Assembly: GCA_006503475.1 (NCBI GenBank) | Contig: RSEH01000146.1 | Span: 57,085-121,084, forward strand | DNA: 64,000 nt | Source of the DNA: Stentor roeselii | Lineage: Eukaryota > Ciliophora > Heterotrichea > Heterotrichida > Stentoridae | Direction of reading: 5' to 3' | Shown: in pieces, positions 6,358 to 56,676 of the stretch | Layout: each line of letters starts with the position of its first letter | Position numbering within the stretch: the first letter of the stretch is position 1 | The notes under the pieces: generated by a model | What the model saw: the letters and a program-made list of their open reading frames with translations, nothing else | What the model was told of the DNA's origin: nothing | Databases searched by the model: none | Position numbers and translations under genes: made by a program

Positions 6358-7680
6358 ATGAGAGAAATCATTTCTATTCACATCGGACAAGCCGGCGTTC
6401 AAATCGGAAATTCATGTTGGGAGCTTTTTTGCCAAGAGCATAAAATCAGTGCAGACGGAAAACTGTCAGCGACTCCAGAGTCAGATTCAACAAGCAGCAC
6501 ATTTTTCATGGAAACAAGTTCAGGAGTCCACGTTCCTCGTTCCTTGATGATAGACCTTGAGCCTTCAGTGATAGACGAGGTGAGAACAGGTCGTTTTTCA
6601 CGTCTTTTTAACTCAAACTACCTGATTTCCGGAAAAGAAGACGCGAGTAACAACTTTGCAAGAGGCCGATACACAGTAGGCCGTGAGTATTCAGAAGAAT
6701 GTTTAGAGACTATCCGTAAAATGACTGAAAACTGTGAAAGTCTTCAAGGTTTCCTTCTTTTTAACTCAATAGGAGGAGGTACCGGGTCAGGTCATACTTC
6801 CTCTATAATCGAGTCACTTTCAAGAGACTACTGCAAACGTCCAAAGCTAGGTTTTCAAATCTTCCCTTCAAAAAACATCTCAACGTCAGTAGTAGAGCCT
6901 TACAACGCAGTGCTTGCAAGTCAGTATTTAATAGACCACAGTGATATTTCAGTGATTCTTGATAACCAGTCACTTTACTCAATTTCATCTAACAAGTTGA
7001 ACATAGAACGTCCTGGTTACCCCAACATTAACAGTTTAATCGCCCAGACCATCTCTTCTTTAACAGTTTCTCTTCGATTTGAAGGCATGCTCAACACAGA
7101 CATTTCAGAATTTCAGACAAATCTTGTACCTTACCCGAAATTACATTTCATGACCTCTGCTCTTGCCCCACTTGTGTCAATTGAGAAGGTTTTTCATGAA
7201 AGTCTTAGTGTTTCTCAGATCACTTCTGATGTCTTTGAACCTGCATCGCTCATGGCTTCTTGTGATATGAGACTAGGGAAGTATATTGCTTGTTCTTTGA
7301 TGTATCGAGGAGATGTGGTGCCTAAAGAAGTTAATAATGCTGTGCTTTGTGTTAAAAAGAAGAAAACTGTGCAGTTTGTTGACTGGTGTCCAACTGGATT
7401 TAAATGTGGAATCAACTTTCAACCACCAGGGGTTGTTGAAGGAAGTGACTTGCCGAAAGTTTCGAGGTCTGTCAGCTTGATTTGCAATAATACGGAAGTT
7501 AAAGAAGTCTTTAGAAATATTTGTAGGGGATTTGATCTAATGTATGCCAAGAGAGCTTTTGTGCATTGGTTTGTTGGGGAAGGGATGGAGGAGAGTGAGT
7601 TGAATATAGCCCGAGAAGAATTGGCTGCTTTGGAAAAGGATTACGAAGAGGTGGTGTTTGACTCAGCAGAGACACAATAA
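6358..7680 (+). CDS. Divergent alpha-tubulin
   Basis: 440 residues that align end to end with alpha-tubulin: MRE start, [12 protein letters not shown], the T-loop GGGTGSG at 139-145, the catalytic Glu (alpha E254 equivalent) at 251 in SEFQTN, the VDWCPTGFK block, and [11 protein letters not shown] near the C-terminus. It is probably able to bind and hydrolyse GTP. Differences from canonical alpha-tubulin are clear. The 37-46 loop is about three residues shorter and has no Lys at the acetylation site (Pro at 40). The tail after DYEEV is only FDSAETQ, without the acidic stretch or terminal Tyr. Acetylation, polyglutamylation and detyrosination of the usual kind are therefore unlikely. It is a minor alpha isotype, not the main axonemal tubulin (inference). 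Confidence 0.93.
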
Positions 7681-18180: not shown

Positions 18181-18741
18181 TTAAAGAAAGAACTGACCTG
18201 CCTCAGTTATAATATAATCAAGTCTTTGATCATGAGGTTCTACAGGTAAATCAGGATAAAATTGACTTAAAAACGATAAACCTATCGCTTGAATAGAAGG
18301 ATAAGCATTTTTTGTACTGTCGTAATAACCTCCTCCGTAGCCTATCCGATGAAGGTCTGAATTAAAACCGAGCATAGGAACAATCATTGATTCAGGGATT
18401 ATTTCAGGACTTTCAATGGAAGGAACTGGAATTTTAAATTTTCCTGGAGATAAAGAAGACTCTAAACAGTCCCATACTCTGAATTTCAGGATTCTAGTAG
18501 AGTCCGTTACAGGTAAACAAACAGTGAATCCTTTTGAGTTAAGATATTTCAAGATAGTAACACAATCAAATTCAGAACCCACATTAAAATACCCAGCCAC
18601 AACCTTTCTTCCCTTCAACACCTCAACAAAACAATTCAAAACATTCAAAAAAACCAAATCCCTATATTCTCCAATTTCCCTATTCCTAACATCCCTTCTC
18701 TTCGAAAGTAAATCCCTGACGTATTTCTTCGAGCCGATCAT
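18181..18741 (-). CDS. MTHFS: 5-formyltetrahydrofolate cyclo-ligase
   Basis: 186 residues, the usual size for the family. The diagnostic phosphate-binding/active-site block RIGYGGGYYD lies near residues 133-142, with VPMLGF just before it and an N-terminal Lys/Arg-rich helix (KKYVRDLLSKRR) that binds ATP phosphates in the family. The enzyme converts 5-formyl-THF to 5,10-methenyl-THF using ATP. The start ATG at 18741 is only 12 nt from the divergent start at 18754, and its stop is 11 nt from the next same-strand gene. Confidence 0.9.
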   Translation of the reverse strand: MIGSKKYVRDLLSKRRDVRNREIGEYRDLVFLNVLNCFVEVLKGRKVVAGYFNVGSEFDCVTILKYLNSKGFTVCLPVTDSTRILKFRVWDCLESSLSPGKFKIPVPSIESPEIIPESMIVPMLGFNSDLHRIGYGGGYYDSTKNAYPSIQAIGLSFLSQFYPDLPVEPHDQRLDYIITEAGQFFL

Positions 18742-18753
18742 CAGTTATAATAA

Positions 18754-19149
18754 ATGGCTCATCCAAGACAACAAATCAACAACTCGATGATAGAAGAAGG
18801 TTACCAATACCTTTACAGACATCAAATCCTCGAACTCTTCGAAGACCTCTGCACTCAAATCGTCTTCGAAAGGCCCCCAGACGTGAAATCATTCCTCATT
18901 CAAAAGCTGACAGAAAGAAAAAAACAAGGCCCAGCAGGACAACAAGTTTTTTCAGATTCCGAAATAAAAAACATTTTCTATCTATTTGACCTGCAACAAA
19001 ACAAGTCCCTAAGCCGCGAACAATGCAAAGAAGCGTTGCGGGCTTTGGCGAATTCCGCTTTTCAATATGACCATGTCGAAAAAGTAGAGATTCCTGACTC
19101 GGTTGACATGGTTTTATTCAGAAAGCTGGCAACGGCGGTTTTAGGATAG
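18754..19149 (+). CDS. EFCAB10-like protein (RIIa-type dimerisation domain plus EF-hand-like region)
   Basis: 131 residues. Residues about 16-52 (YQYLYRHQILELFEDLCTQI and a following RPPDVKSFL) match the RIIa/DPY30 dimerisation-docking fold, as in EFCAB10. Residues 70-110 form an EF-hand-like helix-loop-helix (FYLFDLQQNKSLSREQ), although its loop lacks several acidic calcium ligands. Such proteins dock on AKAP-type helices in cilia, including radial spokes (family knowledge). It is head-to-head with MTHFS. ATG 18754 gives a short polar leader; the next ATG (residue 12) would also keep the domain. Confidence 0.8.
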   Translation: MAHPRQQINNSMIEEGYQYLYRHQILELFEDLCTQIVFERPPDVKSFLIQKLTERKKQGPAGQQVFSDSEIKNIFYLFDLQQNKSLSREQCKEALRALANSAFQYDHVEKVEIPDSVDMVLFRKLATAVLG

Positions 19150-33388: not shown

Positions 33389-34306
33389 TTACTTAGGAAT
33401 AACCTTCAAATTGACCCATCTTTCAGGATGATCAAATTCTTCACGAATACTTTCTTCCCACTTCTCAAGTGGTGTATTTCCTTTAACGATTTTATTATAC
33501 AGCTCGGGGATTTGGATGTACTGAGCAGGATGTCTCGATGAATAACTAAGTTTAACACTAAGACACTTCGAATAAAAATACTTCTTCAGGTCCTCCATGG
33601 ACTTTTCACTCGCAATAACCTTCTGTTGTTCAATCATATTATCCAAATCTCCTAACTCCGCATCAATATTCGTCTTAAGCAAAGGAGACGTAAAATTACT
33701 GTTAGTAGTCTTGATCGACTCAACCTGTGACTGTATCTCATCAATACTTTCACATTTTTTCAATAATTTCTGTAATTTCAAAGACTTTTTATTGTAATCA
33801 AGAAGCTTATTCTTCATTTCAGTCAATTCGCGGGATTTTTTCGTGATAAAAGTTTGAACAATTCCTGAGTCTTTGTGGACTTGCAGGTATTCTAAGAAGT
33901 AGTAAGTCTTGTCTAGTGCCAGGTTTCGGAGTCTTTCTGCGTAAACTAAAAGAGATGGTGAAATGTTTTCTGAGATTTTTCGTAACTTGCAGCTTATCTC
34001 TGTGCAGAGGTCTATTGAATCAGAAGCTGGTTCTATCAAGGCTACCAACTGGTTCGCTGATGTTATGATTGATGAAATTGAAGTACTTTGCTCGTAGGTC
34101 AGGCAGGAATGGTTGTAAAAAGCAAGGGATTCGATTGAGGCTTTCAGTTTGTTGATTTTGTATTGGATTTGGTAGTGGTAGTTACTTTTGCTCATTTTAA
34201 CAACTTGGCTTGTTGGTTTTAGACAGACTTCGGAATGGATTTCGACTTTTTCGAAACTTATCATGTCTTCACAGTTGATGCACAGAACGTCAGGTATGTC
34301 AACCAT
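33389..34306 (-). CDS. C2HC zinc-finger plus helical protein, unknown function
   Basis: 305 residues. The N-terminus carries one C-x2-C-x11-H-x3-C finger (residues 9-28), followed by helical bundles with little low complexity. The same finger spacing occurs at the N-terminus of the WD40-like protein at 60453. The C-terminus ends with an ordered Trp-containing segment (EEFDHPERWVNLKVIPK). Its start lies 3 nt after the stop of the upstream gene, in the same frame. A decayed copy of this gene lies at about 49.64-50.2 kb. Function unknown. Confidence 0.75.
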   Translation of the reverse strand: MVDIPDVLCINCEDMISFEKVEIHSEVCLKPTSQVVKMSKSNYHYQIQYKINKLKASIESLAFYNHSCLTYEQSTSISSIITSANQLVALIEPASDSIDLCTEISCKLRKISENISPSLLVYAERLRNLALDKTYYFLEYLQVHKDSGIVQTFITKKSRELTEMKNKLLDYNKKSLKLQKLLKKCESIDEIQSQVESIKTTNSNFTSPLLKTNIDAELGDLDNMIEQQKVIASEKSMEDLKKYFYSKCLSVKLSYSSRHPAQYIQIPELYNKIVKGNTPLEKWEESIREEFDHPERWVNLKVIPK

Positions 34307-34309
34307 AAG

Positions 34310-35062
34310 CTAATCTTTATTATCTAAAACCTGTTTAAGTGTTTCTTCAATTTGAATTCTTTTCAGTTTCTCCTGTCTAAGCATTCCTTCAAGTTCCAAA
34401 ATATACCTTCTCTGAGAAGAAGTAGTAACTCCAGTGATATGCGAGAGTCCATCTTCCACTTTTTCCGGCAAGTCCTTCACAGCATCAAGTTCTTCCTCAT
34501 CATCTTTCTTCTGAGTCTCTAAATTTTCCGGTTTTTCTTCAAAGTCATCTGGTTTTTCATCGACTTGTTTTCTAATCTTTTCAGGCAAGGTCTGCTCATC
34601 TCTTCTTGAATGGCTACTTGAAGATCTGTACTTAAAAATCCTTGGCCGAATAGGGGAAGACTCAGGTTCTTCATGTTTTTTCACTGAAGAGCTTCCTGGC
34701 CGTTGTCCTGAAGAACTTCTGGGCTTTAGACTGCCGGCCGTTGACGGCCGGCCTAACAAGTTGTTGTCTTTTGGAGCTAGGATGTCATATTGGCCAGCTT
34801 TCTGCATTAGAGGAGGAGGACGCGCGTATTTTCCTCGGACTTCTGCGTATACTCCTGACATTTTGCTGTCAGTTGTATTGTAAAATTGCTTCGCTGTCTG
34901 GGAATTGGGAGTTATTGAGACTTTAGCTCCGGATTTAGGAGTTGATTTTACTACGGGTTGGTATTGACTGAATGGAGATTACCTGAGGAATCTGGAGGCC
35001 GCTGTGACTTCCTTTGAAACTCTTTGTTGCCAGGCAAGGTGTTGATCATAATAAAAAGCCAT
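34310..35062 (-). CDS. Unknown low-complexity protein with C-terminal helix
   Basis: Two exons around a 15-nt intron (34968-34982) give 245 residues starting MAFYYDQHLAWQQRVSKEV. The frame upstream of the obvious Met (34861) is coding-like, which led to the upstream exon. Ser/Arg/Pro-rich repeats and a strongly acidic stretch (KKDDEEELDAVKDL) precede a C-terminal helix. No family is recognised; a cytoskeletal or ciliary role is possible. Its ATG is 2 nt after the stop of the 59-residue gene, and its stop is 3 nt from the next ATG. Confidence 0.7.
34968..34982 (-). other. 15-nt intron
   Basis: On the minus strand GTAATCTCCATTCAG. It joins an AG-ending exon to T, giving Ser, and opens the frame to ATG 35062. 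A is at position 10. Confidence 0.82.
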
Positions 35063-35064
35063 TA

Positions 35065-35244
35065 TTAGTTATCCCTATCATTCTCAGACCTAACTGCCTG
35101 ATCCTTAACTTCATTTTCCAGCCGTTTAAACCTAACATAAGCCTTCCCAATCTTTTCACTACAAGGATAATAATACTCTTCCTTCACAAAAGCGCCAGCC
35201 ACCAACCCAACCATAAAAAGTCCAGCATATTTCACAACTTCCAT
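35065..35244 (-). CDS. Small 59-residue single-pass membrane protein
   Basis: A 60-codon frame starting MEVVKYAGLFMVGLVAGAFV: a hydrophobic helix (about 5-20) at the N-terminus followed by a charged soluble tail (KEEYYYPCSEKIGKAY then KRLENEVKDQAV). The layout is common in small mitochondrial inner-membrane subunits; no family is recognised. The ATG is 5 nt from the divergent PKA regulatory start, with TATAA between, and its stop is 2 nt from the next same-strand ATG. Confidence 0.6.
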   Translation of the reverse strand: MEVVKYAGLFMVGLVAGAFVKEEYYYPCSEKIGKAYVRFKRLENEVKDQAVRSENDRDN

Positions 35245-35249
35245 TATAA

Positions 35250-36422
35250 ATGATCAAAGACTACTCCACCTCGAAACTCAACCCATTCCTGACAGAAATC
35301 GTTTCGCTAGTCCTTTCACAAAAGCCAGAAAAGCCTCTGAACTTTTTAAAGACCTGGCTCGAAGGAAAACTAGGAAAAACAGGCCAGTTATCCGAAAAAG
35401 AAGAACTTTTGAAACTAAGACAAGAAGTAGCGAGATTAAAACATGAAGGTTCCCAAGGCTCAGAAGATGAAAGCAGTGACTCTGCAGATGAACAAGACGA
35501 TCAAATTGATGACCTTCCCCAATCGACTCAGCCTGCTGTCCGTCATCGGTCTGGAGTTTCTGCTGAAGCTTATGGAAACTGGAATAAAAAGGAAAGCTTT
35601 CATCCTCGAGTTGTTCAGAAGACTCAAGAAGCTGAGGAGAGAATTTCGGAAAGAATGGAAACTTGTGTTATTTTCAAAAATGTGCAGGGACCTGAAAAGT
35701 CTATTATTATCCACTCGATGGAAGAAAAGATTGTGAAAAGTGGACAGGTTGTCATTCAGGAAGGGGATGATGGGAATGAGTTGTACTTGGTTGACTCGGG
35801 AAAATTTGATTGCTTTAAAAAAATTGGAGAGGAAAATAAAAAAATCAAGGAGTATCATTCCGGAGAGGTCTTCGGCGAGTTGGCCCTTTTATACAACGCT
35901 CCAAGAGCAGCGACGATAGTCGCTGTTCAAGACTCAGTTCTTTGGAGTCTCGACCGTGAGTGTTTCAATCACATAGTAAAAGAAGCTGCGATAAGACGAA
36001 GAGAAAAATACGTAAAATTCTTATCCCAGGTGAAAATATTATCAAACATGGACCCCTACGAAAGGTCTCAACTTGCAGACGTGTTAAAAACATTAAAATT
36101 CTCTCCTGGAGAAGTAATCATAAAGCAAGGAGACAACGGTGACGATTTTTTCATTGTAGAAGAAGGAAACGCTGTTGCAACTAAAGTGATTCATCAAGGA
36201 CAACACCCTGAGGAAGTCATGAAGTATGGACCTGGAGATTATTTTGGAGAACTTGCACTTATTAAAGGAGAACCGAGAGCTGCTAATGTTCAGGCTGTTT
36301 CTCATGTTCAGTGCCTTTGTTTGGATAGACATTCTTTTAAGAGACTTTTAGGAAATTTAGAAGATATTTTGAAGAGGAATGCAAGACTTTATGAGGAGGT
36401 TGTTGCAAAACTGATGAATTAA
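35250..36422 (+). CDS. PKAR: cAMP-dependent protein kinase regulatory subunit
   Basis: 390 residues. An N-terminal helical part (residues 1-45, KPEKPLNFLKTWLE) resembles the RIIa dimerisation-docking domain. An acidic linker leads to the inhibitor segment VRHRSGVSAEAYGNW near 95-110, equivalent to the RRxA/S-V-SAE site of RI subunits. Two cyclic-nucleotide domains follow, each with an intact phosphate-binding cassette: FGELALLYNAPRAAT and FGELALIKGEPRAAN. It binds and inhibits the PKA catalytic subunit until cAMP binds. It is head-to-head with the 59-residue membrane gene. Confidence 0.94.
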   Translation: MIKDYSTSKLNPFLTEIVSLVLSQKPEKPLNFLKTWLEGKLGKTGQLSEKEELLKLRQEVARLKHEGSQGSEDESSDSADEQDDQIDDLPQSTQPAVRHRSGVSAEAYGNWNKKESFHPRVVQKTQEAEERISERMETCVIFKNVQGPEKSIIIHSMEEKIVKSGQVVIQEGDDGNELYLVDSGKFDCFKKIGEENKKIKEYHSGEVFGELALLYNAPRAATIVAVQDSVLWSLDRECFNHIVKEAAIRRREKYVKFLSQVKILSNMDPYERSQLADVLKTLKFSPGEVIIKQGDNGDDFFIVEEGNAVATKVIHQGQHPEEVMKYGPGDYFGELALIKGEPRAANVQAVSHVQCLCLDRHSFKRLLGNLEDILKRNARLYEEVVAKLMN

Positions 36423-36450: not shown

Positions 36451-38796
36451 TTAGTTGTTGTAGGATTGGCGAATTTTTAAGAGGTCTTGCATTCTTTTTG
36501 CCTCCATGTCCATTGATTTTTTTAGTTCTCGTACCATAAATGCTGATTCCTTCCAGCAAATAAGTAATTCTTGATTATCCCTCAGAAGTTTTTCATTTTC
36601 TTTGATATGCTCCGAAAGTTGCAGTTTAATCCTTCGATTCTCATCATTTCCAGCAACAAAAGGATCCTTAATAATCAAAGTATTCCTGAGTTCCCTAATA
36701 GAGCTTTTCCTAACAAATTGCAATTTAGCCTGAATCTGTTCCTTATCATTCTGTATTTTCGTGATAGCTTTTTCAGTATCCCTGATCATCTGTTCACTTC
36801 TAAAAATATTCTCATGATTCAATTTATTCAAGGTCTCTTCATGACTTTTCTTGATAAGTTGAATAGTTTCATCTTTTTCTTCAATAATCATTTTCTTCTC
36901 TTTTTCCAGTTTCGAGTTCATAAGTTGCAATTTGATAAGTTCTTCTTTCAACGCATCCATTTTTTCATTTAATTCAAAATTCGGTGTTTTTCCTTCTAAG
37001 ATAATTTCTTTTTTATATAAATTATTCTGATCTTCCATCATTTTCACCTTTTCTTGTAAAACTTTCAATTCAATATTCAACTGATTTAAAAGTATCTCCT
37101 TTTCACTAACCTTCGACCGAGCTTCCATCAAAAGGTCTTTAGTTTCAATGCACCTGATAAAAACCTCATCTTTCTCCGAGTGACTTTTTTTAATCCCTTC
37201 TAAAAGTTCTTCATTTTTTTGTTTATAATTTTCAATCTCCATTTTAATAATCTGCATATTTTGCGACAAGACTTGATTTTCCAATTTTTCTTCTGAAAAA
37301 TCTTCTACTTTTCTAACAAGGACTTCATTATTTTTTCTAAGTTGAATAATTTGATAGTCACTTAAGAACTGTCGAGTAAGAAGTTCCTCATAAATCATTT
37401 GAACGTTTTCCTTTTTCGCTTGTTTTTTCTTATGAGCGAAGTCAAGCATGACATGAAGCCTGTTGTTTTCTTTCATCAAGTTTTCAGCACAATCAAGCCT
37501 AGAGTTAGGTCTTTCTGAATACATATGAATCAATCTTTTTCGAGCGTTTTCAAGGTCGTTTTCATGATTTGAATGTTTTGAATCAATAGAAGAAGAGTCA
37601 CTTGATTGATTTTTCAGTTCTTCACAATAGTTTTCAAGAAAAATGATTTTTTCTTTAAGTTCTGTAATCAAATTTTGAAGTTGTCGATTTTGTTTTTCTT
37701 TACAGTCAACGGAAATGCTGAGAAGTTCGACTGAGTTCTTTTCTTTTGAAAGTTCTTGTTTGAGTTGTCGGATTTTTACCTTTGCTCGTAAGTTGTAGTC
37801 TGAATCATGTTGATGCTTTTTGATGAGTTGTTGCATTTGCTCGTTGCTTTTCTTTAGTTCTTGGTTTTTTTTCTTTAGAGATGAAAGAGACTCGATTTTT
37901 TTCTTGTATTTTTCGAGGACTGACTCGTAGTAACCTACTTTGTGGCTGTTGGATAAAGCGATGTCGAGCTCGTCTTTTAAACGAGAATTTTCTTGTTCGA
38001 GTTCTCTTCTTGTACTTTCCATTATTTGCTTTGAGAGCTCTAACATGTGGGTCTTTTCGTTTAGTTTCTTTTCTAGCTTTGAGAAAATTTCGGTTGATGT
38101 GTTTGAGACTTTTGATGACAGGGAATCTATTTCGTTTTGAAGCTGAGCATTCGCTAACTTCAGTTCCTCATTTTCCTTCTGAAAACCATCTCTTAACTGA
38201 TTCGAATGTCCAACTTCCTTCTGAAGCTCTGAAATTTGTTTCATAAGATTATTCTTCGCACTTTTAAGAATTTCAATTTCTTTATTATTGATTTCCTCTT
38301 CCTGTGCCCAGTCATCTTCATGATTGAGTATTTTTTTAATAAAAAGCATCATAGAAAATTGATGTTTTTCATCAAGTTGCATGATTTTCCTAATAAACTT
38401 TTCCTTAAGGTCACATTTGAGAATGACTAAAAAAACAATCTCAAGAAGTTTAATCACATCAGCAGGGTCTCCTTTCCTCGCAATATTTCCAAGCAAAACA
38501 TCATTAATCCTCTCATAAGGCACTTTTAACGTATAAGTCAAATAATTTTGAACAGCTTGTTTAAGTCTTTTCAAATTTCCCAATTTTAAAGCCCAATTGT
38601 TCTGCACGTCTAAGTTGATTAAAGTCAAGTCAAAACTTTCACTCGATCTACTTTTTCATTACATTGAGCCCAGAAGTTCAAACAAAAGAATTCCATCAGA
38701 CAAGTCTGTCAAATTTTCACATTTCCTGGAAAGGTTGTTTTCATTTAACTGTCTAAAAAATACCCACTGGACCAGGGCAATATCAAGGTTTTCCAT
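36451..38796 (-). CDS. Hook-family dynein/cargo adaptor
   Basis: About 771 residues after removal of two 15-nt introns (38648-38662 and 38749-38763). The first 150 residues form the Hook domain: W followed 15 residues later by DL.DG, then NNWALKLGNLKRLKQAVQNYL, the block equivalent to NWRLK.SNLKK. A long coiled coil (about 180-750) follows. Hook proteins link cargo and dynein-dynactin on microtubules. The second intron carries no stop codon; its removal aligns both the Trp-to-Asp spacing and a Cys with animal Hook, so it was accepted. The start is 5 nt after the stop of the kelch gene on the same strand. Confidence 0.88.
38648..38662 (-). other. 15-nt intron in Hook gene
   Basis: GTAATGAAAAAGTAG on the minus strand. 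It has an in-frame TAA without splicing; the joined protein reads GSISSESFDLTLINLD, continuing the Hook domain. A is at position 10. Confidence 0.9.
38749..38763 (-). other. Stop-free in-frame 15-nt intron in Hook gene
   Basis: GTATTTTTTAGACAG on the minus strand. Read through, it adds VFFRQ after VQW. Spliced, WLNENNLSRKCENLTDL matches animal Hook spacing exactly. A is at position 10. Confidence 0.75.
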
Positions 38797-38801
38797 TTAT
38801 T

Positions 38802-41800
38802 TTAACTATCGCTTGTGAAGTCTGTAGATTTTTCTTTGCGTACTTCAGAAAGTTCATAACTGTTGAAATTTTTCTTTTTGAAATGATGAATAGTAGATGG
38901 TCTCACTTTTCCACGTCTTGAAAATGAAAATTTTCCGTAAATCACCTCGAAACATGAGAGAAAAGCTCCAAAAGTCCCCATAAGTCCGAAAACTGAGGCT
39001 AATAAATTTTCAGTGAAGTTTAAAGGGTTGTTATCAAGATTTCTTTTAGTGACCAGAGCTGTGGTGCTTAGTTTTAAGTTCAAAACAATAGAAATGGAAG
39101 CTTCTGACCTGAAACTAAGTAAAAATTACGTTTCTTGAGTGAGGGTTGAACCGATTTGATGGTTTTTTAGGTCTAGAATGTGATAACCTGAGGAATTTTT
39201 AGGAAAGTGGCTTGATTCTGACTTGAAGACCTGTTTATCTGGTACTGAAGGGATGAACTCGAAATTGAAGGAAGAGGATTTAAGACCTTTGAAGACTTCT
39301 TCTTCTTTTAATGGGTATAAAGGCACAAAAACCTTGCTTTTGTCTTCCGGGATTGAAGAAGAGACGCTGAGATTCGCTGATATGAATCCGCAATAAGTCG
39401 TTGATTTCCCTGTCAAAAGCTTGATTTGATGATCTCCGTTTAACTGAAAGTCTGTAAACTTCAAGCTTATCACACAATCGCCTTCAACATCTTCACAAGT
39501 GTAACTTGGCTCTTCTTGGATACTTGAAGAGTAGAAAAAGTTTGAAATACAATTTGTCTTTTTAACGGAAGGGTCAGAACAGAACTCAGAATAAGAATGG
39601 AAAATGATTTTCATGTCTAAACTTTTGGCATTAACTTCTTCATTTAGAGTCACAAGAGGAACCAATGTTTTAATCTCAGTGATGTTATCGTTGGTGTAGG
39701 TAAAAAAAGCAATTATTATACTTGAAGCTGCGAATATGTAAAAAGAAACTGAAAAAAAACCTCCAGGTAGAGTTTTTTTTAAAATAATAGGTTTTTCTAG
39801 CTTTTGCTCATGACTTGAAGTGAAAATATCGAGTTTTGTTAGAATTTTTCGCATTCCTGTGAAGCATAAACAGAAAACTATTATTAATCCGATGATTCCA
39901 AGAGAAGTGAAAAAGAAATTCAGAGCTAAACTATTTGTACTTGCAATTTTTTTGTTGTAGTTTTTAGGTTGCTCGCTTTTTGATTGTAGTTTGGCCTTTA
40001 TGACTTTAGGCGCAGAACTTCCTATTGGGCAACTGGATAAACTAGGACATTGTTTACAGTATGTTGCTCCTGGTTTTTCATTGAATTCTCCGAATTTGCA
40101 AGGTAAACATTGGGAGTTTATGATGGCTCCAACCTTTTGGAAATATAGACCTGGATCGCATTTGGTGCAATTTTTGTTGTTTAGATAAGTTCCTGCTGGG
40201 CAGGGCTCACAAATATTAAGTTGATTGAATACGCCATCAAAGCAAGGTAATGAATAAGAATCACTTTCCTCCAAGTTCACTTTCAACAAAGAATTATTTG
40301 GTACATCACTCACATCATACCCTAAACTTGAAGCGACTCCTCCAAAGACATATAAAGAATTTCCAATCCAATTCATGGAATGACTATGAACCCAGAGTTC
40401 AGATGGAAGTTGAATAGATGTTAAAGAATGTTCTTTTATATTGAAAATCATCAATTTTTTACTAATTTCTCCTCCAAATATAATCCCTCCAAGTATCAAA
40501 ATCGAATTTTCCACCAGAATAGAAGATGACTTGTATATATTCAGTTCTGAAAAATCATAAGTGTTATTCAACTCGTAGTAAGTGTTTTGAATATCATTTG
40601 TATCGAATTTTACGATAATTTTAAAGATTTTCGAATAAGGATTATAGTTTGAGTCTGTTGCTCCTACAATATAAATATATGTATTGTTTTCTTCACGACT
40701 AATAAAACATTGATGGTTTACAAGCTCCTTTGGTAAGGGTTTGTTACTTTGGATTTCTATGTATCTTGCCAGAGGGTAATGGTACATGATGATTTTGTCT
40801 CCGAAGGCTTTGGTTGAATCTTTGCCTCCAATAACAATAATGTAAAAACCATATTCAACTATGCACATTGAATGACGAGGGGGTAAAGAACCTGAACTTA
40901 CAGAGTTTATATACCAGGTTGAATAATCAAATGAGTAAAAGTGGTTTTCATTCAGTGCTTGTCCTTCACATGTTCCTCCCATGCACACAAATCCGTATCC
41001 TTTCAAATCTAAACAAGCCATCAGTTCTCTACTTTTCGGTATATTTCCATTTGATTGGGCTTTAGACCAACTTTCTTTTATTAGATCGAACTTCCAAATA
41101 TCATTTAAACATCCCTTGTTTTCATCAGAACCGCCATATATATATAAAGAGTGTTCATAAGCAAAACTCATGTGATTTTTTCTGGGTATTGGTCTAGACA
41201 CAAAGTTATTAAAATCATTCATCAAGTTTGTATCCATATCAAAAGTAGTGACCCAATTACTATTGCTTCCACTAACTCCAAGTAAAAAATAGATGAGATT
41301 ATTAAGCACTAAATAAGTAAATCCATTCAATTCCAATGAAAAATTTTTAACAAGTATCCATTCAAATCCCTTAAAAGAGTATTTATAAATGTTCTGATTT
41401 CGATGAGTTGAATTGTGTCCAAATGAAACATAAAGAAAGTCTCGATAAACTACCGCTGAATGAGATTCAATTAAAAATTCTAAAGTTTCAGACATTTCAG
41501 TCCAGGTTTCACTTTGGAGATCAAGTTTATAAAAAAGATGCCCTTGTTCATAAGTTCCTCCAAGTAAGTAAAGACAATCTTCATAAAAAGTTAAAGATGC
41601 GAAAGCTCTGGCACTTGGAATATTTCCTGAGGCTTTTAATTGTTTTACTGTCAAAGTTTCTGTATTGATCCTGAATAAAACTTACAAATAGAGGATGTTT
41701 GATAGTCCTGAATTTGTGATTCCACCAAAAACTCCCAAATAATTAATTCCTTTGTAAATGAATCGGCAACTGGCACTTCCCATTGATGCTTGCATTTTTT

Positions 41801-42185
41801 CACCTGATAAACTCACTTGTTCCCATATCATCTTGGTTAGATTAAATGAATAGATCTTGTCTGAAATGCCTTTCGATGTTTTGCCAAACATCACATAAAG
41901 CTTTTCTGATTGACTTAAAAATAACAGGGTATGGGATAATTCTGAAGGTTTTTCATTTGAAGATTCAAGGTATTGTCCCCAATTCAATGAATTTATATCG
42001 AAATAGTAAAGACTTGATGAGTATATTGAACGATCTCTTGTTTGTCCACCAAATATGATTATGCGATTTAATGCAGAGTGATATTCTGAAGAACTATGGA
42101 TCAGTTGAGGAGGATTTAGACCTGAATGTGCTAAACGCTCAACAGAGACTGATGCACAAATGCTTAGAAGAAGCAGAACAAACAT
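38802..42185 (-). CDS. Kelch-repeat, Cys-rich, multi-pass membrane protein
   Basis: Three exons (introns 41671-41685 and 39115-39129) give 1,117 residues. A signal peptide (MFVLLLLSICASVSV) is followed by kelch repeats forming one or two beta-propellers (recurrent LYVFGG, IYGGSDE, MGGT, VIGGKD). Then a Cys-rich block near 650-710 (CEPCPAGTYL, CDPGLYF, CLPCKFGEF) resembles the ephrin-receptor/GCC2-GCC3 repeat. Hydrophobic helices lie near 760, 815 and 1065, with a Ser-rich lumenal segment between and a short basic C-tail. It looks like a ciliate surface receptor or adhesion protein. No ligand is suggested by sequence. Confidence 0.85.
39115..39129 (-). other. 15-nt intron in kelch gene (3' intron)
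   Basis: GTAATTTTTACTTAG on the minus strand. It joins LTQET to FRSEASISIVLNLK and so adds the last 98 residues with a membrane helix. A is at position 10. Confidence 0.88.
41671..41685 (-). other. 15-nt intron in kelch gene (5' intron)
   Basis: GTAAGTTTTATTCAG on the minus strand. It joins SNILYL to INTETLTVKQL across two kelch-repeat frames. A is at position 10. Confidence 0.9.
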
Positions 42186-47135: not shown

Positions 47136-48002
47136 ATGTGCGACAAATCAGCTATACTAAAGTCAATCAACACAATGACCATAGTCTGCTCTTCTCTTTC
47201 AGGTCTATTTTCACTAATCTTGATCATTCTCTACCTAAAAGTCGGAAGACAAGGTGGTTTATCCTTCCACATCCTCCTCTACATGTCAATAACCGATCTA
47301 ATCCGAAGTACATCCTTTATCTTAGTATCACAATTCATGAATCAACAACTATTTTGCCTATCAACAGCAGTTCTAATAAACAGTTCAATGTTAACCCATT
47401 CAATTTGGTCAGTTTACATAATCTTCATCATTTATCGAATTTACATCAAGTTCCCTACAGAGTCAGAATTTTACCTTAAAACTTGGACAATCAGTGGTTT
47501 TTTCATTCCTCCTTTATTTCATCTGCTTCCTCTCATAACGAACAGCTACGGAGAGAACGAAGGAGGCTGTACTTATAAAAAAGACGTAAATGGGATTATT
47601 TGGAGAGGTGTTCAAGAATTTTTTATGTTTGGAATTGTTTTTATAGGGATTTTTACTTATTTTAAAGTGATTAGAAAGATGCAGAAGGTTAAAATGATTG
47701 GGATTAAAGAGATATTGTTTGAAAAAGGAATGATTTATACTATCATTTTCTTTTTTACTTTGATATTTGTTATTTTGTTTCGGTTTCTGGACTTTTTTGT
47801 TGGATTTTGTAGAATTTATCCTTTTGCTTTTATTTCTTATGGACTTACTTCTTGTCATGGGGTGTTTAATTTTTTGGCTTTCATGGGAAATCGAGGGTTT
47901 TGGAAAGAGTTGACGAGGATAAACGATTCACTTATGGACCAGTCAGAGTCTTATGATATAGTCGCTAGAATCATTTGTGATAATGAGATGAATAATGCTT
48001 GA
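47136..48002 (+). CDS. Seven-helix receptor, cAMP-receptor-like (paralogue A)
   Basis: 288 residues with seven hydrophobic helices and an N-terminus too short for a large ligand domain (MCDKSAILKS). Helix 3 ends IIYRIYIKFP, the second extracellular loop carries the conserved Cys in GGCTYK followed by IIWRGVQE, and helix 7 reads SCHGVFNFLAFMGNRGFW. This pattern fits the cAMP-receptor-like (class E/GPR157-type) GPCR group found in slime moulds and ciliates. The C-tail keeps SYDIVARII, shared with the two other copies. It ends with TGA. It is tail-to-tail with paralogue B. Confidence 0.8.
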   Translation: MCDKSAILKSINTMTIVCSSLSGLFSLILIILYLKVGRQGGLSFHILLYMSITDLIRSTSFILVSQFMNQQLFCLSTAVLINSSMLTHSIWSVYIIFIIYRIYIKFPTESEFYLKTWTISGFFIPPLFHLLPLITNSYGENEGGCTYKKDVNGIIWRGVQEFFMFGIVFIGIFTYFKVIRKMQKVKMIGIKEILFEKGMIYTIIFFFTLIFVILFRFLDFFVGFCRIYPFAFISYGLTSCHGVFNFLAFMGNRGFWKELTRINDSLMDQSESYDIVARIICDNEMNNA

Positions 48003-48218: not shown

Positions 48219-49085
48219 TTAACTCCCGAACATCTCTTTATCACTAATAATACTCTGAACTATATCAAAAGATTCAGATTTATCCATCTTCAAATCCTTA
48301 ATCCTAACCAACTCTCTCCAAAAGCTTCGATTTCCCATAAAAGCCAAGAAATTCAAAGTTCCATGAGAGGCTACCAAGCTATAAGCCAAGAAAGCAAAAG
48401 GATAAATGCTACAAAATCCAAAAAAATAATCCAAAAACCGAAACAAAATAACAAAAATCAAAGTAAAAAAAAAAATGATAGAGTAAATCATTCCTTTTTC
48501 AAACAAAACTTCTCGAATACTAATAATTTTAGTCCTTTTCATCTTTCTAACAACTCTAACATAAGCTAAAATTCCGACAAGAACAATAAAAAACATTCCA
48601 AACTCTTGAAACCCTCTCCAAATCATTCCATGAAAATCAGCTTTAAAGGTACAAATTCCTTCGTTCTTTCCATAGCTGTCAGTTGAAAGAGGAAGTAAAT
48701 GAAAGAGTAGAGGAATAAAAAATCCTGTAATTGTCCAAGTCTTTAGGTAAAATTCTGATTCTGAAGGAAAGTTGATGTAGATGCGGTAAAGAATGAAGAT
48801 TATGTAAATTGACCAGATTGAGTGGATTAAAAGAGAACTGTTTATGAGAATCGCTGTTGAGAGGCAAAGCCATCTTAGGTTTATTAACTCGGATACAAGG
48901 ATTAAGCATGTACTTCGGATTAGGTCTGTTATTGACATGTAGAGAAGGATGTGGAAGGATAAACCACCTTGTCTTCCTAGCTTTAGGTAGAGAAGCATTA
49001 AGATTATGGAGCATAGGCCTGAAAGTGCTGAGCATGAGATGGTTACTATGCTCATGGACTTTAAAATATCTTCTTTGTTGCACAT
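48219..49085 (-). CDS. Seven-helix receptor, cAMP-receptor-like (paralogue B)
   Basis: 288 residues, same length and register as paralogue A: MCNKEDILKS start, GRQGGLSFHILLYMSITDLIRST, GICTFKADFHGMIWRG, and FLAFMGNRSFW. Most differences are conservative, so the copies arose by inverted duplication not long ago, and selection has kept both frames. Ligand and G-protein partner are unknown. Confidence 0.8.
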   Translation of the reverse strand: MCNKEDILKSMSIVTISCSALSGLCSIILMLLYLKLGRQGGLSFHILLYMSITDLIRSTCLILVSELINLRWLCLSTAILINSSLLIHSIWSIYIIFILYRIYINFPSESEFYLKTWTITGFFIPLLFHLLPLSTDSYGKNEGICTFKADFHGMIWRGFQEFGMFFIVLVGILAYVRVVRKMKRTKIISIREVLFEKGMIYSIIFFFTLIFVILFRFLDYFFGFCSIYPFAFLAYSLVASHGTLNFLAFMGNRSFWRELVRIKDLKMDKSESFDIVQSIISDKEMFGS

Positions 49086-49639
49086 TTTTTATTAAAGATT
49101 TACTCTTAATCGGGTTTAGTTATTTTTAAGCTTTAGTTTAGATTTTTAGTGAGGATTTATAAATAGAGTAACAATAATTAGCTCAATATAAGTTCAGAAT
49201 TTTCTCTTCTCATATTCTTTGGTGATTCTAAACATTAGCATATTGTAATAAACTCTGATTTAAGTTCTTTAGGTCCATCACATCTTATAGAAATAAAACA
49301 ATGTTATTGTAATCATATCAATTTTCTGATTATTTACATGAATATATTATATAAGAAAAGCTGTACGGAAGATGGAGATTTAATATCACAGGAGTTTAGA
49401 AATATTGATATGGTAGACATCTTGTCTTGTTTTATAGTTAAGAAAATGAAGATTCCCAAGAGAATCCATATGAAAAAGATTATGAATTTACGGTGTACTA
49501 ATTTTCCCATAAATATATATATTTATAGGAATATTCAAGCAAAGTAGTTAAAATAAGCAAAGCTTCTTACAATATATAATAAAAAAAATCAATAAACTAA
49601 AGTTTCAATAAAATTCCTATAATTCTTCAATAATTCGCC

Positions 49640-50200
49640 TCCGACCTACAAACACTTTAATTTCATTGATCATAACATTAGCGAACCAGTTAATATCTTT
49701 GATTGAACCAGCATCAGATTCGAATGACCTCTACACAGAAAAAAGCTGCAGTTTTAAAAAATATCAGAAAGAATTTCACCAGCTCTTCTTTTTATGCAGA
49801 AAAACTGATAAACCTTGCACTATACAAACTTCCCACTTCTTAGAAAACCTGAAAGCCCTCAAGGCTCAGAAATCGTTAAAATGTTTATCACGAAATAAAT
49901 GAATGAAGAAGGAGTTCTTTTACTACGACAACAGTCACTGAACTCCAATAACTACTGAAAAAATGTAAAATTATTTAAAAGCTGTAGTCACGGGTCGAGT
50001 CAATCAAAACAACAAACAGCAACTTAACGTCTTCCTTACTGAAGATAAACATTGACAGGAATTGGAAGATCTGGACAAATAATTGAGCATAAGAAAGTGA
50101 TTTCGAGTGAAAAATCATGGAGAACACAAAGTATTTCATATAAGTGTAAAGCTGAGTTACTCCTAATTACATCCTGCTCAGTTCATACAGATCTCCAGCT
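49640..50200 (+). pseudogene. Decayed copy of the C2HC zinc-finger gene at 33389-34306
   Basis: The segment 49666-49760 reads ANQLISLIEPASDSNDLYTEKSC, closely matching ANQLVALIEPASDSIDLCTEISC of the intact gene. Further along the same strand, ELEDLDK near 50065 and VKLSYS-stop-LHPAQFIQI near 50150-50195 match AELGDLDN and VKLSYSSRHPAQYIQI of the same protein in the right order. Stops and frameshifts interrupt all segments. A possible N-terminal start (MVDI near 49411) is only weakly supported. Confidence 0.85.
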
Positions 50201-50294
50201 CTAAAGACAATATTTAAAGCTAAATAATCTTTAAAGATTCCACCGTACTCAACGACAGCCAATTTAAAGGTTTTTAAAGTAATCCATAATAAAT

Positions 50295-51801: not shown

Positions 51802-53106
51802 ATGAGCGAAATAATCAGTCTTCACATCGGCAGTCCCGGAGTCCAAATCGGAAACAAACTCTGGAATTTATTTTCAACGGAGCACAGTCTCAACCACCCA
51901 AGCTATTTAAAATCAACCCAAATGCAAATTCCATCAAATCTATCAACTTTCTACTCAGTCCATCCTTCTTCCCAATACTATCCCCGAGCCTTATTCATCG
52001 ACAACGAAATCTCTCTTTCCTCATCCTTAACCTTCCCAAACATTTCTTCTCTTCCTTCAGACCACCTGATCCTTGCAGAGGATTCCGAAGGAAACTATTC
52101 CAAAAGTCACTCATCATTAGTCTCTAACGAAATTCAAGAAAAAATCCGAAGACTTGTCGAGAACTGCTCAAGTCTTCAAGGCTTTTTGATTTACAGCTCT
52201 ACTGCTGGAGGACTTTCAGGCCTGGCTTCAAAAATTCTTGAAAATCTTTCGGATGACCTGCCAAAAAATACAAAATTAGGAATTACTTTGTTTCCTTCTA
52301 GGGAATCAAATGATTTAAGTGTTTTTAACTTTTTAGCTTCTTTTGGAAACTTTTTGAATCGACTTGATTCTTGTATTTATTTGGAAAATGAAAGTGTTGA
52401 GAGGATTTATAAGAAGATTTTATCTGTGGAAAATTTTGGATTTATGGAAATTAATGATTTAATTGCAGAGCTTGTATCGAATCTGACGTTTTTTTTAAGA
52501 TTTGATGAGAATCAGGAGTTTAGGTTAAGAAATTTCGTTTCTGATTTCATTCCTTATCCTTCTGCTAAGTACTTGATTACTTCTATAGCACCTTTGATGA
52601 AAAAAGACGAGAACTTGCCTGACCCTTATCCAGGTGATTTATGCAATTTTGCCTTTTCTAATGATTATCTCTTTTCTAATACTTTTATTGAAAGGGGTAA
52701 GTTTTTAGGGGCTTCTGTTAGTTTTAGAGGGAATATCGTGAATAAATATATCAGCTCTTGTGTTGCATCGATTAAAGCTTCGAGAAGACTTAGGTTCGTT
52801 GATTGGACACCTAATTGCCTTAAATGTTGGATTAATAAGAAAGTCTTACCTGGACTACCTGAAAGTCTTTTTACTAGGAGACAGAAAAGTGTCTGCATGG
52901 TAGCAAATTCAACTGCTATTAAAGAAAACTTCTTCAGATTTAAAAAGAATTTTGATAAGATAGAGAATCAACAGCGAATAAGGTTAAAGTTTTATGAAAA
53001 TGGATTTGAAGATGCATGCTTTCGAGAATGGAGTGAAGAGTTGGGGAATATTTGTGAAGATTATTTGGAAATGGAGAAAGATTTTGGGGAAGAGGAGGTG
53101 GAATAA
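51802..53106 (+). CDS. Highly divergent tubulin with degraded GTPase site
   Basis: 434 residues from ATG 51802 (MSEIISLHIGSPGVQIGN). Tubulin landmarks persist: GVQIGN, NCSSLQGFLIYSS, VDWTPNCLKCWI, and the H11-H12 end EWSEELGNICEDYLEMEKDF. Nucleotide-site residues are altered: the T-loop GGGTGSG is AGGLSG (one residue deleted), the first-loop GQAG is GSPG, and the catalytic Glu of alpha-tubulin is Asn244. The acidic tail is EEEVE. The best relation is to alpha-tubulins, and the same C-terminal block occurs in the gene fragment at 63873. It may be a non-hydrolysing or non-polymerising variant (inference). The intact frame argues against a pseudogene. Confidence 0.85.
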   Translation: MSEIISLHIGSPGVQIGNKLWNLFSTEHSLNHPSYLKSTQMQIPSNLSTFYSVHPSSQYYPRALFIDNEISLSSSLTFPNISSLPSDHLILAEDSEGNYSKSHSSLVSNEIQEKIRRLVENCSSLQGFLIYSSTAGGLSGLASKILENLSDDLPKNTKLGITLFPSRESNDLSVFNFLASFGNFLNRLDSCIYLENESVERIYKKILSVENFGFMEINDLIAELVSNLTFFLRFDENQEFRLRNFVSDFIPYPSAKYLITSIAPLMKKDENLPDPYPGDLCNFAFSNDYLFSNTFIERGKFLGASVSFRGNIVNKYISSCVASIKASRRLRFVDWTPNCLKCWINKKVLPGLPESLFTRRQKSVCMVANSTAIKENFFRFKKNFDKIENQQRIRLKFYENGFEDACFREWSEELGNICEDYLEMEKDFGEEEVE

Positions 53107-55803: not shown

Positions 55804-56676
55804 TTAAATAGTAGAATTTTTCGAATCCGAGCTCTGCAGCATTCTCTTCACAATATCAACAGACTCCGTTCTACTTTTCTGCTTACAAACCAAATACCTG
55901 ATTTCTTTCCTAAAGCTCTTATTAGAAACCAGTGCTAAAAAATTAAAAAATCCATGCAAAGCCGAGCAAGAAAAAGCAACAAATCCAATTCCAAAAATAT
56001 CACAAAACTCAAAAAACATCTCCAAATACCTATAAACAACAACAACCATCATAGTCATTAAAAAAACAAAAGCATAAACCAGTCCTTTCTCAAAAACCAC
56101 TTCTTTCACTCCAACAATAGAAAAAATCCTTTTCTTAACAAGAAACACAAAACAAGCGAGAACCGCCGTGAAAACAATGATAAAAGTCGAGATCTCTTGA
56201 CTAGTCCTCCAAATAATTCCATTTAAATCGTCTTTATAAGTGCAAGAGCCTTGATTGAAGCCGTAGCTTTGAGTGGTGAAAGGAAAAAGCTGAAAAAGTG
56301 GAATCACGAAGAAGCCAATGACTGTCCAGGTCTTTACGTAAAAGTCATTTTCAAGAGGAAAGTTTGAGTAAATCCGAAAAAGCATGAAAATTATGAAAAG
56401 AGACCAAATCGCAATCATTTGAAATGTGCAGTTCGTTATGTATCCCAGGAATTCACATAATGTTTCGTCGGAATTCAGTTGGGAGTCTATTGAAAAAGCT
56501 ATGCTGCGAATTAGGTCTGATATTGCCATGTAAAATAATACTCGGAAGGATAAAGTGTTTAGACGGTCGATGTATAGGAAGAAACTGATTATTGATATTG
56601 ATGAAAGACCTGAGAGGAGAGAACAGATGAAGAGAATTTTTCGGTATAAGGATATGATTTGAACTTCGTTGCACAT
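55804..56676 (-). CDS. Seven-helix receptor, cAMP-receptor-like (paralogue C)
   Basis: 290 residues from ATG 56676 (MCNEVQIISL); a longer reading from 56739 adds 21 unrelated residues, while MCNE lines up with the MCDK and MCNK starts of the paralogues. Shared positions include YMAISDLIRS, FRIYSNFP, GSCTYKDDLNGIIWR and HGFFNFLALVSNKSF. It is more diverged than A and B are from each other. The C-tail keeps SVDIVKRML. Confidence 0.8.
   Translation of the reverse strand: MCNEVQIISLYRKILFICSLLSGLSSISIISFFLYIDRLNTLSFRVLFYMAISDLIRSIAFSIDSQLNSDETLCEFLGYITNCTFQMIAIWSLFIIFMLFRIYSNFPLENDFYVKTWTVIGFFVIPLFQLFPFTTQSYGFNQGSCTYKDDLNGIIWRTSQEISTFIIVFTAVLACFVFLVKKRIFSIVGVKEVVFEKGLVYAFVFLMTMMVVVVYRYLEMFFEFCDIFGIGFVAFSCSALHGFFNFLALVSNKSFRKEIRYLVCKQKSRTESVDIVKRMLQSSDSKNSTI

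Follow-up and report, generated by a model that had tools for sequence, protein, structure and literature searches.

In histone genes of Giardia intestinalis, transcription start sites (TSS) precede the start codon by 1-27 nt (a passage in PMC1872034). Parts of PMC2803860 describe Encephalitozoon cuniculi as having 5' untranslated regions (5'UTRs) of under 7 nt, a motif immediately before the coding start and overlapping transcripts; they also propose a palindromic AAATTT for a head-to-head gene pair 35 bp apart. For Halteria grandinella, an excerpt of PMC7858049 gives a TATA-like motif near the start and a 5'UTR that averages about 18 bp in one group. Blepharisma stoltei is gene-dense, with mainly 15- and 16-bp introns, little sequence between genes and tiny UTRs (a section of PMC9942806), and about 95% of heterotrich introns are given as 15 bp (a passage in PMC11441545). 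Here we analyze a stretch of 64,000 nt from Stentor roeselii (contig RSEH01000146.1, positions 57,085-121,084; hereafter the window), in which three genes on the minus strand, A, B and C, follow each other with gaps of 2 and 3 nt, and gene A lies head-to-head with the gene of a PKA regulatory subunit (PKA-R) across a 5-nt spacer, TATAA. Literature searches returned no title on heterotrich start sites or on such spacers, which is not to claim that none exists, and a paper on Stentor splicing (PMC9505925) has no passage on leaders.

The reading that we favor, with a probability of roughly 0.7, is that these genes would give rise to separate, nearly leaderless mRNAs, each started by an A/T element at its ATG, and not to a polycistron. 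RNA polymerase II would begin each mRNA within about 10 nt of the ATG, guided by this start-codon element. For A and PKA-R one 5-bp element would serve both directions. Gene B would use TAATA (35063-35067, minus strand), the TAA stop of A together with the following 2 nt; this word abuts the ATG of B and fits the A/T start context of the genome. For C the element would be poor, or lie within the end of B. Each mRNA would run shortly into the next gene, with slight overlaps between neighboring transcripts, and would be translated from its first ATG only.

Four genes and the spaces between them

Gene A (35065-35244, minus strand) has 59 codons and ends with TAA. Gene B (34310-35062, minus strand) encodes 245 aa once a 15-nt intron is removed, ends with TAG and belongs to a family with DxHxAWQQR near the N-terminus. 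Gene C (33389-34306, minus strand; 305 aa, stop TAA) has an N-terminal C2HC-type zinc-finger pattern, CINC-x11-H-x3-C. The gene for PKA-R (35250-36422, plus strand) encodes 390 aa with two cyclic-nucleotide-binding domains. The junctions read TAA-TA-ATG between A and B, TAG-CTT-ATG between B and C (spacer at 34307-34309, minus strand, outside the A/T start context) and CAT-TATAA-ATG between A and PKA-R. The last spacer (35245-35249; TTATA on the other strand) is the proposed shared start element. B and C have a common reading frame, while A and B are in different frames. Stops, starts, coordinates and gaps are exactly those of the original prediction, which had also stated that there is no space for a conventional promoter or 5' leader. 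With gaps of 2, 3 and 5 nt this is correct; hence the start signals must either extend into the coding sequence of a neighbor or lie at the start codon.

The starts of all four genes are backed by paralogues in the genome (44.4 Mb in 522 contigs, with the window at the end of contig C55), in which the members of the B and C families are dispersed. A search with B gave 13 further matching rows at E<=1, ten of them below 1e-4 (9 places, C2 twice). Eight of the 13 contain a single internal TAA, as B does at its intron (34968-34982, minus strand; GTAATCTCCATTCAG, GTA..CAG, with an in-frame TAA). The DxHxAWQQR block is invariant in all six aligned members. Gene C gave 18 further rows at E<=1, seven of which are nearly full-length, lie on other contigs and have E<1e-13. 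Its CINC pattern begins eight residues after the Met, and the cysteines and the histidine are invariant in all six aligned members, in agreement with its earlier designation as a zinc-finger gene. With these invariant N-terminal blocks the start codons of both genes are fixed, and so are the gaps. In the PDB no convincing homologue was found for B, singly or as a family profile, or for C, searched as a family profile only; a Pfam scan of both yielded only matches below the cut-off. A decayed copy of the C family is present in the window at 49540-50202 (plus strand), 15 kb from C; the piece is 36% identical and interrupted by in-frame stops (4 TGA, 5 TAA).

The Pfam domain cNMP_binding matches PKA-R with E 6e-44 in two stretches, i.e. 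two tandem cyclic-nucleotide-binding domains, the PDB matches are PKA regulatory subunits (best E 1.2e-74) and the genome contains six full-length relatives (46-57%). The segments LNPFLTEIVSLVL.. and RHRSGVSAE look like candidates for the N-terminal dimerisation/docking helix and the inhibitor site.

A genome search with A returned two further rows, with E 0.002 and E 0.63. The better one is a complete 59-aa frame from ATG to stop (locus L005, 1447-1626, minus strand), which has EEY..P.SEKI in common with A and 18 identical columns out of 61. The coding score of A is positive in its own frame and negative in the five others. On the other side, our gene finder, a hidden Markov model (HMM), never called A in four settings; with a coding score of 6.0, A ranks lower than 94% of the 60-codon windows from predicted genes, and among the 68 other uncalled frames (40-90 codons) six score at least as high, one of them being the A paralogue. 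Because a complete relative of 59 aa with EEY..P.SEKI exists, we consider A to be a real small gene and reject a chance frame; the coding score alone would not have shown this. The original prediction called it a 59-codon membrane gene; one hydrophobic stretch is seen by eye. A has no convincing homologue in the PDB, singly or as a family profile, and no match in a Pfam scan. Judged by their relatives, A, B, C and PKA-R are four real protein genes.

Gene spacing was determined in a sample of 305,894 bases, which comprised the window, one B-paralogue locus plus 15 round-coordinate 10-kb loci (together L031-L046) and 22 paralogue loci. Gap counts refer to pairs in which both genes have at least 80 codons and start counts to complete genes of at least 100 codons, as called by the HMM, which permitted introns of 15 or 16 nt only. 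Tandem gaps (n=83) have a median of 77 nt; 20 of them do not exceed 20 nt and 7 do not exceed 5 nt, the latter including one 20-nt overlap and B/C itself. Divergent gaps (n=44) have a median of 155 nt, with 8 at <=24 nt, and convergent gaps (n=37) a median of 27 nt. With A missed by the HMM, A/B and A/PKA-R stand outside these counts and B is scored as divergent from PKA-R by 187 nt. Outside the window the values are 14/69 (<=20 nt) and 4/69 (<=5 nt) for tandem and 7/36 (<=24 nt) for divergent pairs, and the picture is unchanged over four penalty settings (window plus L031-L046). The window itself holds further tight pairs, with tandem gaps of 5, 11, 13 and 15 nt and a divergent gap of 12 nt. 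The 5-nt tandem spacer (38797-38801, minus strand) separates the minus-strand genes 38802-42185 and 36451-38796; the 12-nt divergent spacer (18742-18753, CAGTTATAATAA) separates 18181-18741 (minus) from 18754-19149 (plus). On the basis of these gap counts and of the other tight pairs in the window, the spacing of the four genes is at the tight end of the ordinary distribution in this genome and is not exceptional.

Some regularities of the gaps are recorded here in their own right. Short divergent gaps cluster at 21-24 nt (5 of the 8 at <=24 nt) and convergent gaps at 13-21 nt (11/37). Among tandem gaps of 0-40 nt, 16/31 are divisible by three, which is above one third; chance, split genes or read-through are possible reasons.

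In the standard code, long frames stay open (51 frames with 300 codons or more, 94 kb; TGG 9.5 per 1000 codons). All 35 introns of predicted genes are 15 nt long, although 16 nt was also permitted. GTA..AG joins of 10-30 nt that contain a stop, counted independently of the finder, are likewise most frequent at 15 nt (8 cases, against 0-2 for each other length). Introns of this size, and TGA not serving as a sense codon, suggest a heterotrich ciliate other than Blepharisma, in which TGA is read as Trp.

Start context and the TATAA spacer

Start codons in this genome have a distinct A/T context. Positions -5 to -1 consist of A and T only in 94/150 starts, compared with 27/150 for positions -15 to -11 and 100/1306 for internal ATGs. 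The genes A, B and PKA-R conform to this context, and it is found at 7/10 tandem starts with a gap of <=10 nt (one of these being the 20-nt overlap) and at 55/87 isolated starts. In 76 isolated genes we counted those upstream ATGs which are ruled out as the true start. None occurs in 532 positions at -10 to -4, one in-frame open ATG being excluded; the next three tens of positions have 9/760, 5/760 and 10/760, and -100 to -81 has 16/1520. With G rare near the start, the absence of ATGs there is weak evidence on its own. More weight goes to their return to background beyond -10, because longer leaders should avoid ATGs further upstream. We infer from this pattern that mRNAs in this genome would be nearly leaderless, with a TSS within about 10 nt of the ATG.

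A further compositional feature is seen upstream of starts with a gap of >100 nt. Between about -11 and -150 the coding strand has little G (0.07-0.10) and more C (0.16-0.25); this zone fades beyond -150, is nearly gone beyond -200 and may mark a promoter region.

The word between A and PKA-R, CAT-TATAA-ATG (CATTATAAATG), occurs 154 times in the genome, while the same word backwards occurs 51 times (ratio 3.0). The corresponding figures are 80 and 123 (ratio 0.65) for the TTTAA spacer word CATTTTAAATG, 36 and 15 (ratio 2.4) for the ATTAA spacer word CATATTAAATG, and 35 and 12 for the six-base TTATAA spacer word CATTTATAAATG. Per 5-mer in the sample, TATAA between CAT and ATG is 4.4 times as frequent as TTTAA and 5.5 times as frequent as ATTAA. 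ATTAA is an unfair control for start context, hence the use of TTTAA, for which the comparison consists of counts alone. The fit to the start context on the two strands is 1.0 for TTTAA and 0.8 for TATAA. We therefore reject the view that TATAA is mere translational context, since TTTAA fits slightly better and yet is 4.4 times rarer per 5-mer.

We then asked how often such words lie between open frames, i.e. frames of at least 60 codons or reaching the edge of the retrieved stretch. Open frames on both sides were present at 7/20 TATAA sites (20 checked among 100 listed, of 154) and at 0/20 ATTAA sites (20 of 36, with C204:363 and C206:188591 skipped and those after C279 outside the set). One side was open at 8 and 5 sites, and neither side at 5 and 15 sites, respectively. 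All seven two-sided TATAA sites have a positive coding score on either side. The value of 7/20 is conservative because the A side, with 59 codons, would itself fail the 60-codon cut. By this open-frame check, TATAA-spaced divergent pairs are a recurrent class, more frequent than chance would give, and we regard this as the notable result. Simple scaling (154 x 7/20) would give about 50 such sites, with a wide error.

The motif is also frequent near tight divergent starts in general. TATAA lies within 25 nt of 12/14 starts of divergent pairs with a gap of <=25 nt, compared with 2.1 after shuffling; note that the 14 starts come from 8 pairs and are non-independent. For tandem starts with a gap of <=25 nt the values are 9/23 and 3.8. 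In five of the seven PKA-R family genes TATAA is no more than 15 nt from the start codon; four of these five genes belong to tight divergent pairs. An identical 5-nt TATAA spacer was found in one of the round-coordinate loci (L035, 6917-6921; starts at 6916 and 6922). Overall, the sample has four CATTATAAATG sites: two are 5-nt head-to-head pairs, one precedes a PKA-R relative and one is without a called gene.

The recurrence of CAT-TATAA-ATG between open frames is consistent with one element driving both divergent genes. Going further, it is a tentative suggestion, which we would sooner doubt than assert, that the 5 bp of TATAA between the start codons alone may initiate transcription of two leaderless genes in opposite directions, and do so at some tens of loci. 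To our knowledge this would be the smallest divergent promoter spacer in a eukaryote, with a TATA sequence at the start site and not 25-30 bp upstream of it. A role as canonical TATA box 25-30 bp before the TSS was considered and rejected: TATAA directly adjoins the ATG, and if transcription began 25-30 nt further down, the PKA-R mRNA would lack its start codon. The similarity of PKA-R to its relatives begins a few codons after this ATG.

Alternative explanations

Several observations weigh against separate, nearly leaderless mRNAs started at the ATG. The ATG of C is preceded by AGCTT and breaks the A/T rule. At -10 to -1, two ATGs were seen where about 6 are expected by composition, G being rare there. 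In the backward-word control TATAA (3.0) is far above TTTAA (0.65) but little above ATTAA (2.4), and two open frames were not seen at 13/20 TATAA sites. The excess of TATAA is weak in isolated genes (20/87, compared with 14.7 after shuffling), where TAATAAA-like words are preferred, as well as at tandem gaps of <=10 nt (3/10 and 1.8), and at gaps of 26-60 nt TATAA falls below the shuffled value (2/18 and 3.1); these values suggest that the signal may in part be translational context. Furthermore, all start calls derive from our own HMM. Finally, ATGs are somewhat depleted farther upstream in tight pairs relative to matched controls. Tight tandem pairs have 8/690 positions at -60 to -31, compared with 74/3060 in control gene ends, and tight divergent pairs have 7/980 at -100 to -31, compared with 60/3150 in control antisense starts. 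This scarcity would fit longer leaders inside the neighboring genes, which leads to an alternative that the original prediction had named: promoters and leaders would lie within neighboring coding sequence, and mRNAs would start tens of nt upstream and overlap as in microsporidia. The lack of spacer for promoters or leaders, and the lack of a start-proximal A/T element at C, agree with it. However, ATGs are at background beyond -10 in the 76 isolated genes, TATAA is close to the starts in tight divergent pairs, and the depletion itself counts as weak because several regions had been compared. We consider this alternative unlikely: the part of the earlier claim that concerns the missing leader space stands, but an element at the start codon is favored over promoters deep in the neighboring gene.

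Transcription of A, B and C as one polycistronic mRNA, with B and C translated by reinitiation or leaky scanning, is suggested by the gaps of 2 and 3 nt on the same strand and by the slight excess of a common frame among short tandem gaps. We nevertheless hold it to be quite improbable, and the original idea of a polycistronic or nested three-gene unit is unsupported. Such spacing is common in the sample, and the order of the A, B, C and PKA-R families is conserved at 0/21 paralogue loci (1 A, 7 B, 7 C and 6 PKA-R; flanks mostly 1.5 kb, weaker matches left out). Relatives of B and C are found apart from each other; upstream of the closest B relative, 776 nt are predicted to be free of genes, C relatives have upstream gaps of 1 to 973 nt and PKA-R relatives of 21-174 nt, half of the six being divergent and half tandem. 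None of the 83 tandem pairs has a -4 or -1 stop-start overlap, most tight tandem starts, though not that of C, keep the A/T context of isolated genes, and among the paper titles looked through none reports polycistrons in ciliates. The common frame of B and C could also point to one protein, made by read-through of the TAG or by removal of a longer intron, as B-TAG-CTT-ATG-C is a single open frame but for the TAG and nine GT..AG stretches of 10-300 nt would join B and C in frame. An in-frame arrangement is, however, expected by chance in 1/3 of pairs. Five of five B relatives checked have their own TAA end, and seven C relatives begin without B ahead of them. Inspection of the candidate introns bore out the earlier statement that no 15-nt intron can merge the two genes: only one of the nine is <=40 nt long (21 nt, GTT..TAG; donor within 150 nt before the B stop), the GTA candidates have 150-222 nt, and 35/35 introns in predicted genes have 15 nt in a finder limited to 15-16 nt. 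A fusion of B and C by either route is extremely improbable, and we reject it.

Other features of the window and comparison with known systems

Between 42000 and 64000 the window has a GC content of 0.27-0.35, compared with 0.33-0.44 earlier, and called genes are sparser. The end of the window is the end of the contig, and the last 500 bases, inspected by eye, are without a telomere-like repeat. Three genes of 288-290 aa (47136-48002, plus; 48219-49085, minus; 55804-56676, minus) have similar N-termini and no Pfam match at E<=0.01; two of them are an inverted pair. A gene of the tubulin family at 51802-53106 (plus strand; Pfam Tubulin, E 2.4e-30) looks divergent, by eye, when set beside the tubulin-like frame at 6358-7680.

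If separate mRNAs are indeed started at the ATG, a ciliate with a large gene set would have its signal for transcription start located at the start codon, used in common by genes on opposite strands. This arrangement would resemble that of reduced parasites without genome reduction. It would allow a sharp, inexpensive test of the way in which RNA polymerase II and ribosomes operate where a leader is all but missing. For heterotrich genomes it would also provide a working rule by which start codons and small genes, for example the 59-residue A, can be called.

The comparison with the described systems is limited to the cited passages of the respective papers. The locus resembles G. intestinalis in having an AT-rich element that would contain the transcription start and would leave very short leaders; it differs in belonging to a ciliate with 15-nt introns and in the single 5-bp TATAA between head-to-head genes. 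With E. cuniculi it has in common compact genes, a start-adjacent motif and an element proposed for a divergent pair. There, however, the motif is CCC/GGG-like, the spacer has 35 nt and the organism is a reduced parasite, whereas here the element is A/T, the spacer has 5 nt and the genome is that of a 44 Mb ciliate. The macronuclear genome of B. stoltei, gene-dense with mainly 15- and 16-bp introns, is similar in this to the region analyzed here; Blepharisma differs in reading TGA as Trp (PMC9942806), while no TGA is present inside A, B, C, PKA-R or the six PKA-R relatives. H. grandinella, finally, is also a ciliate; its TATA-like motif lies close to the start, and its 5'UTR is short. In contrast to S. 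roeselii, it has mostly one gene per chromosome, and the motif precedes the TSS by 17 bp on average, in the manner of a TATA box; here the motif abuts the ATG, and the spacers are common to two genes.

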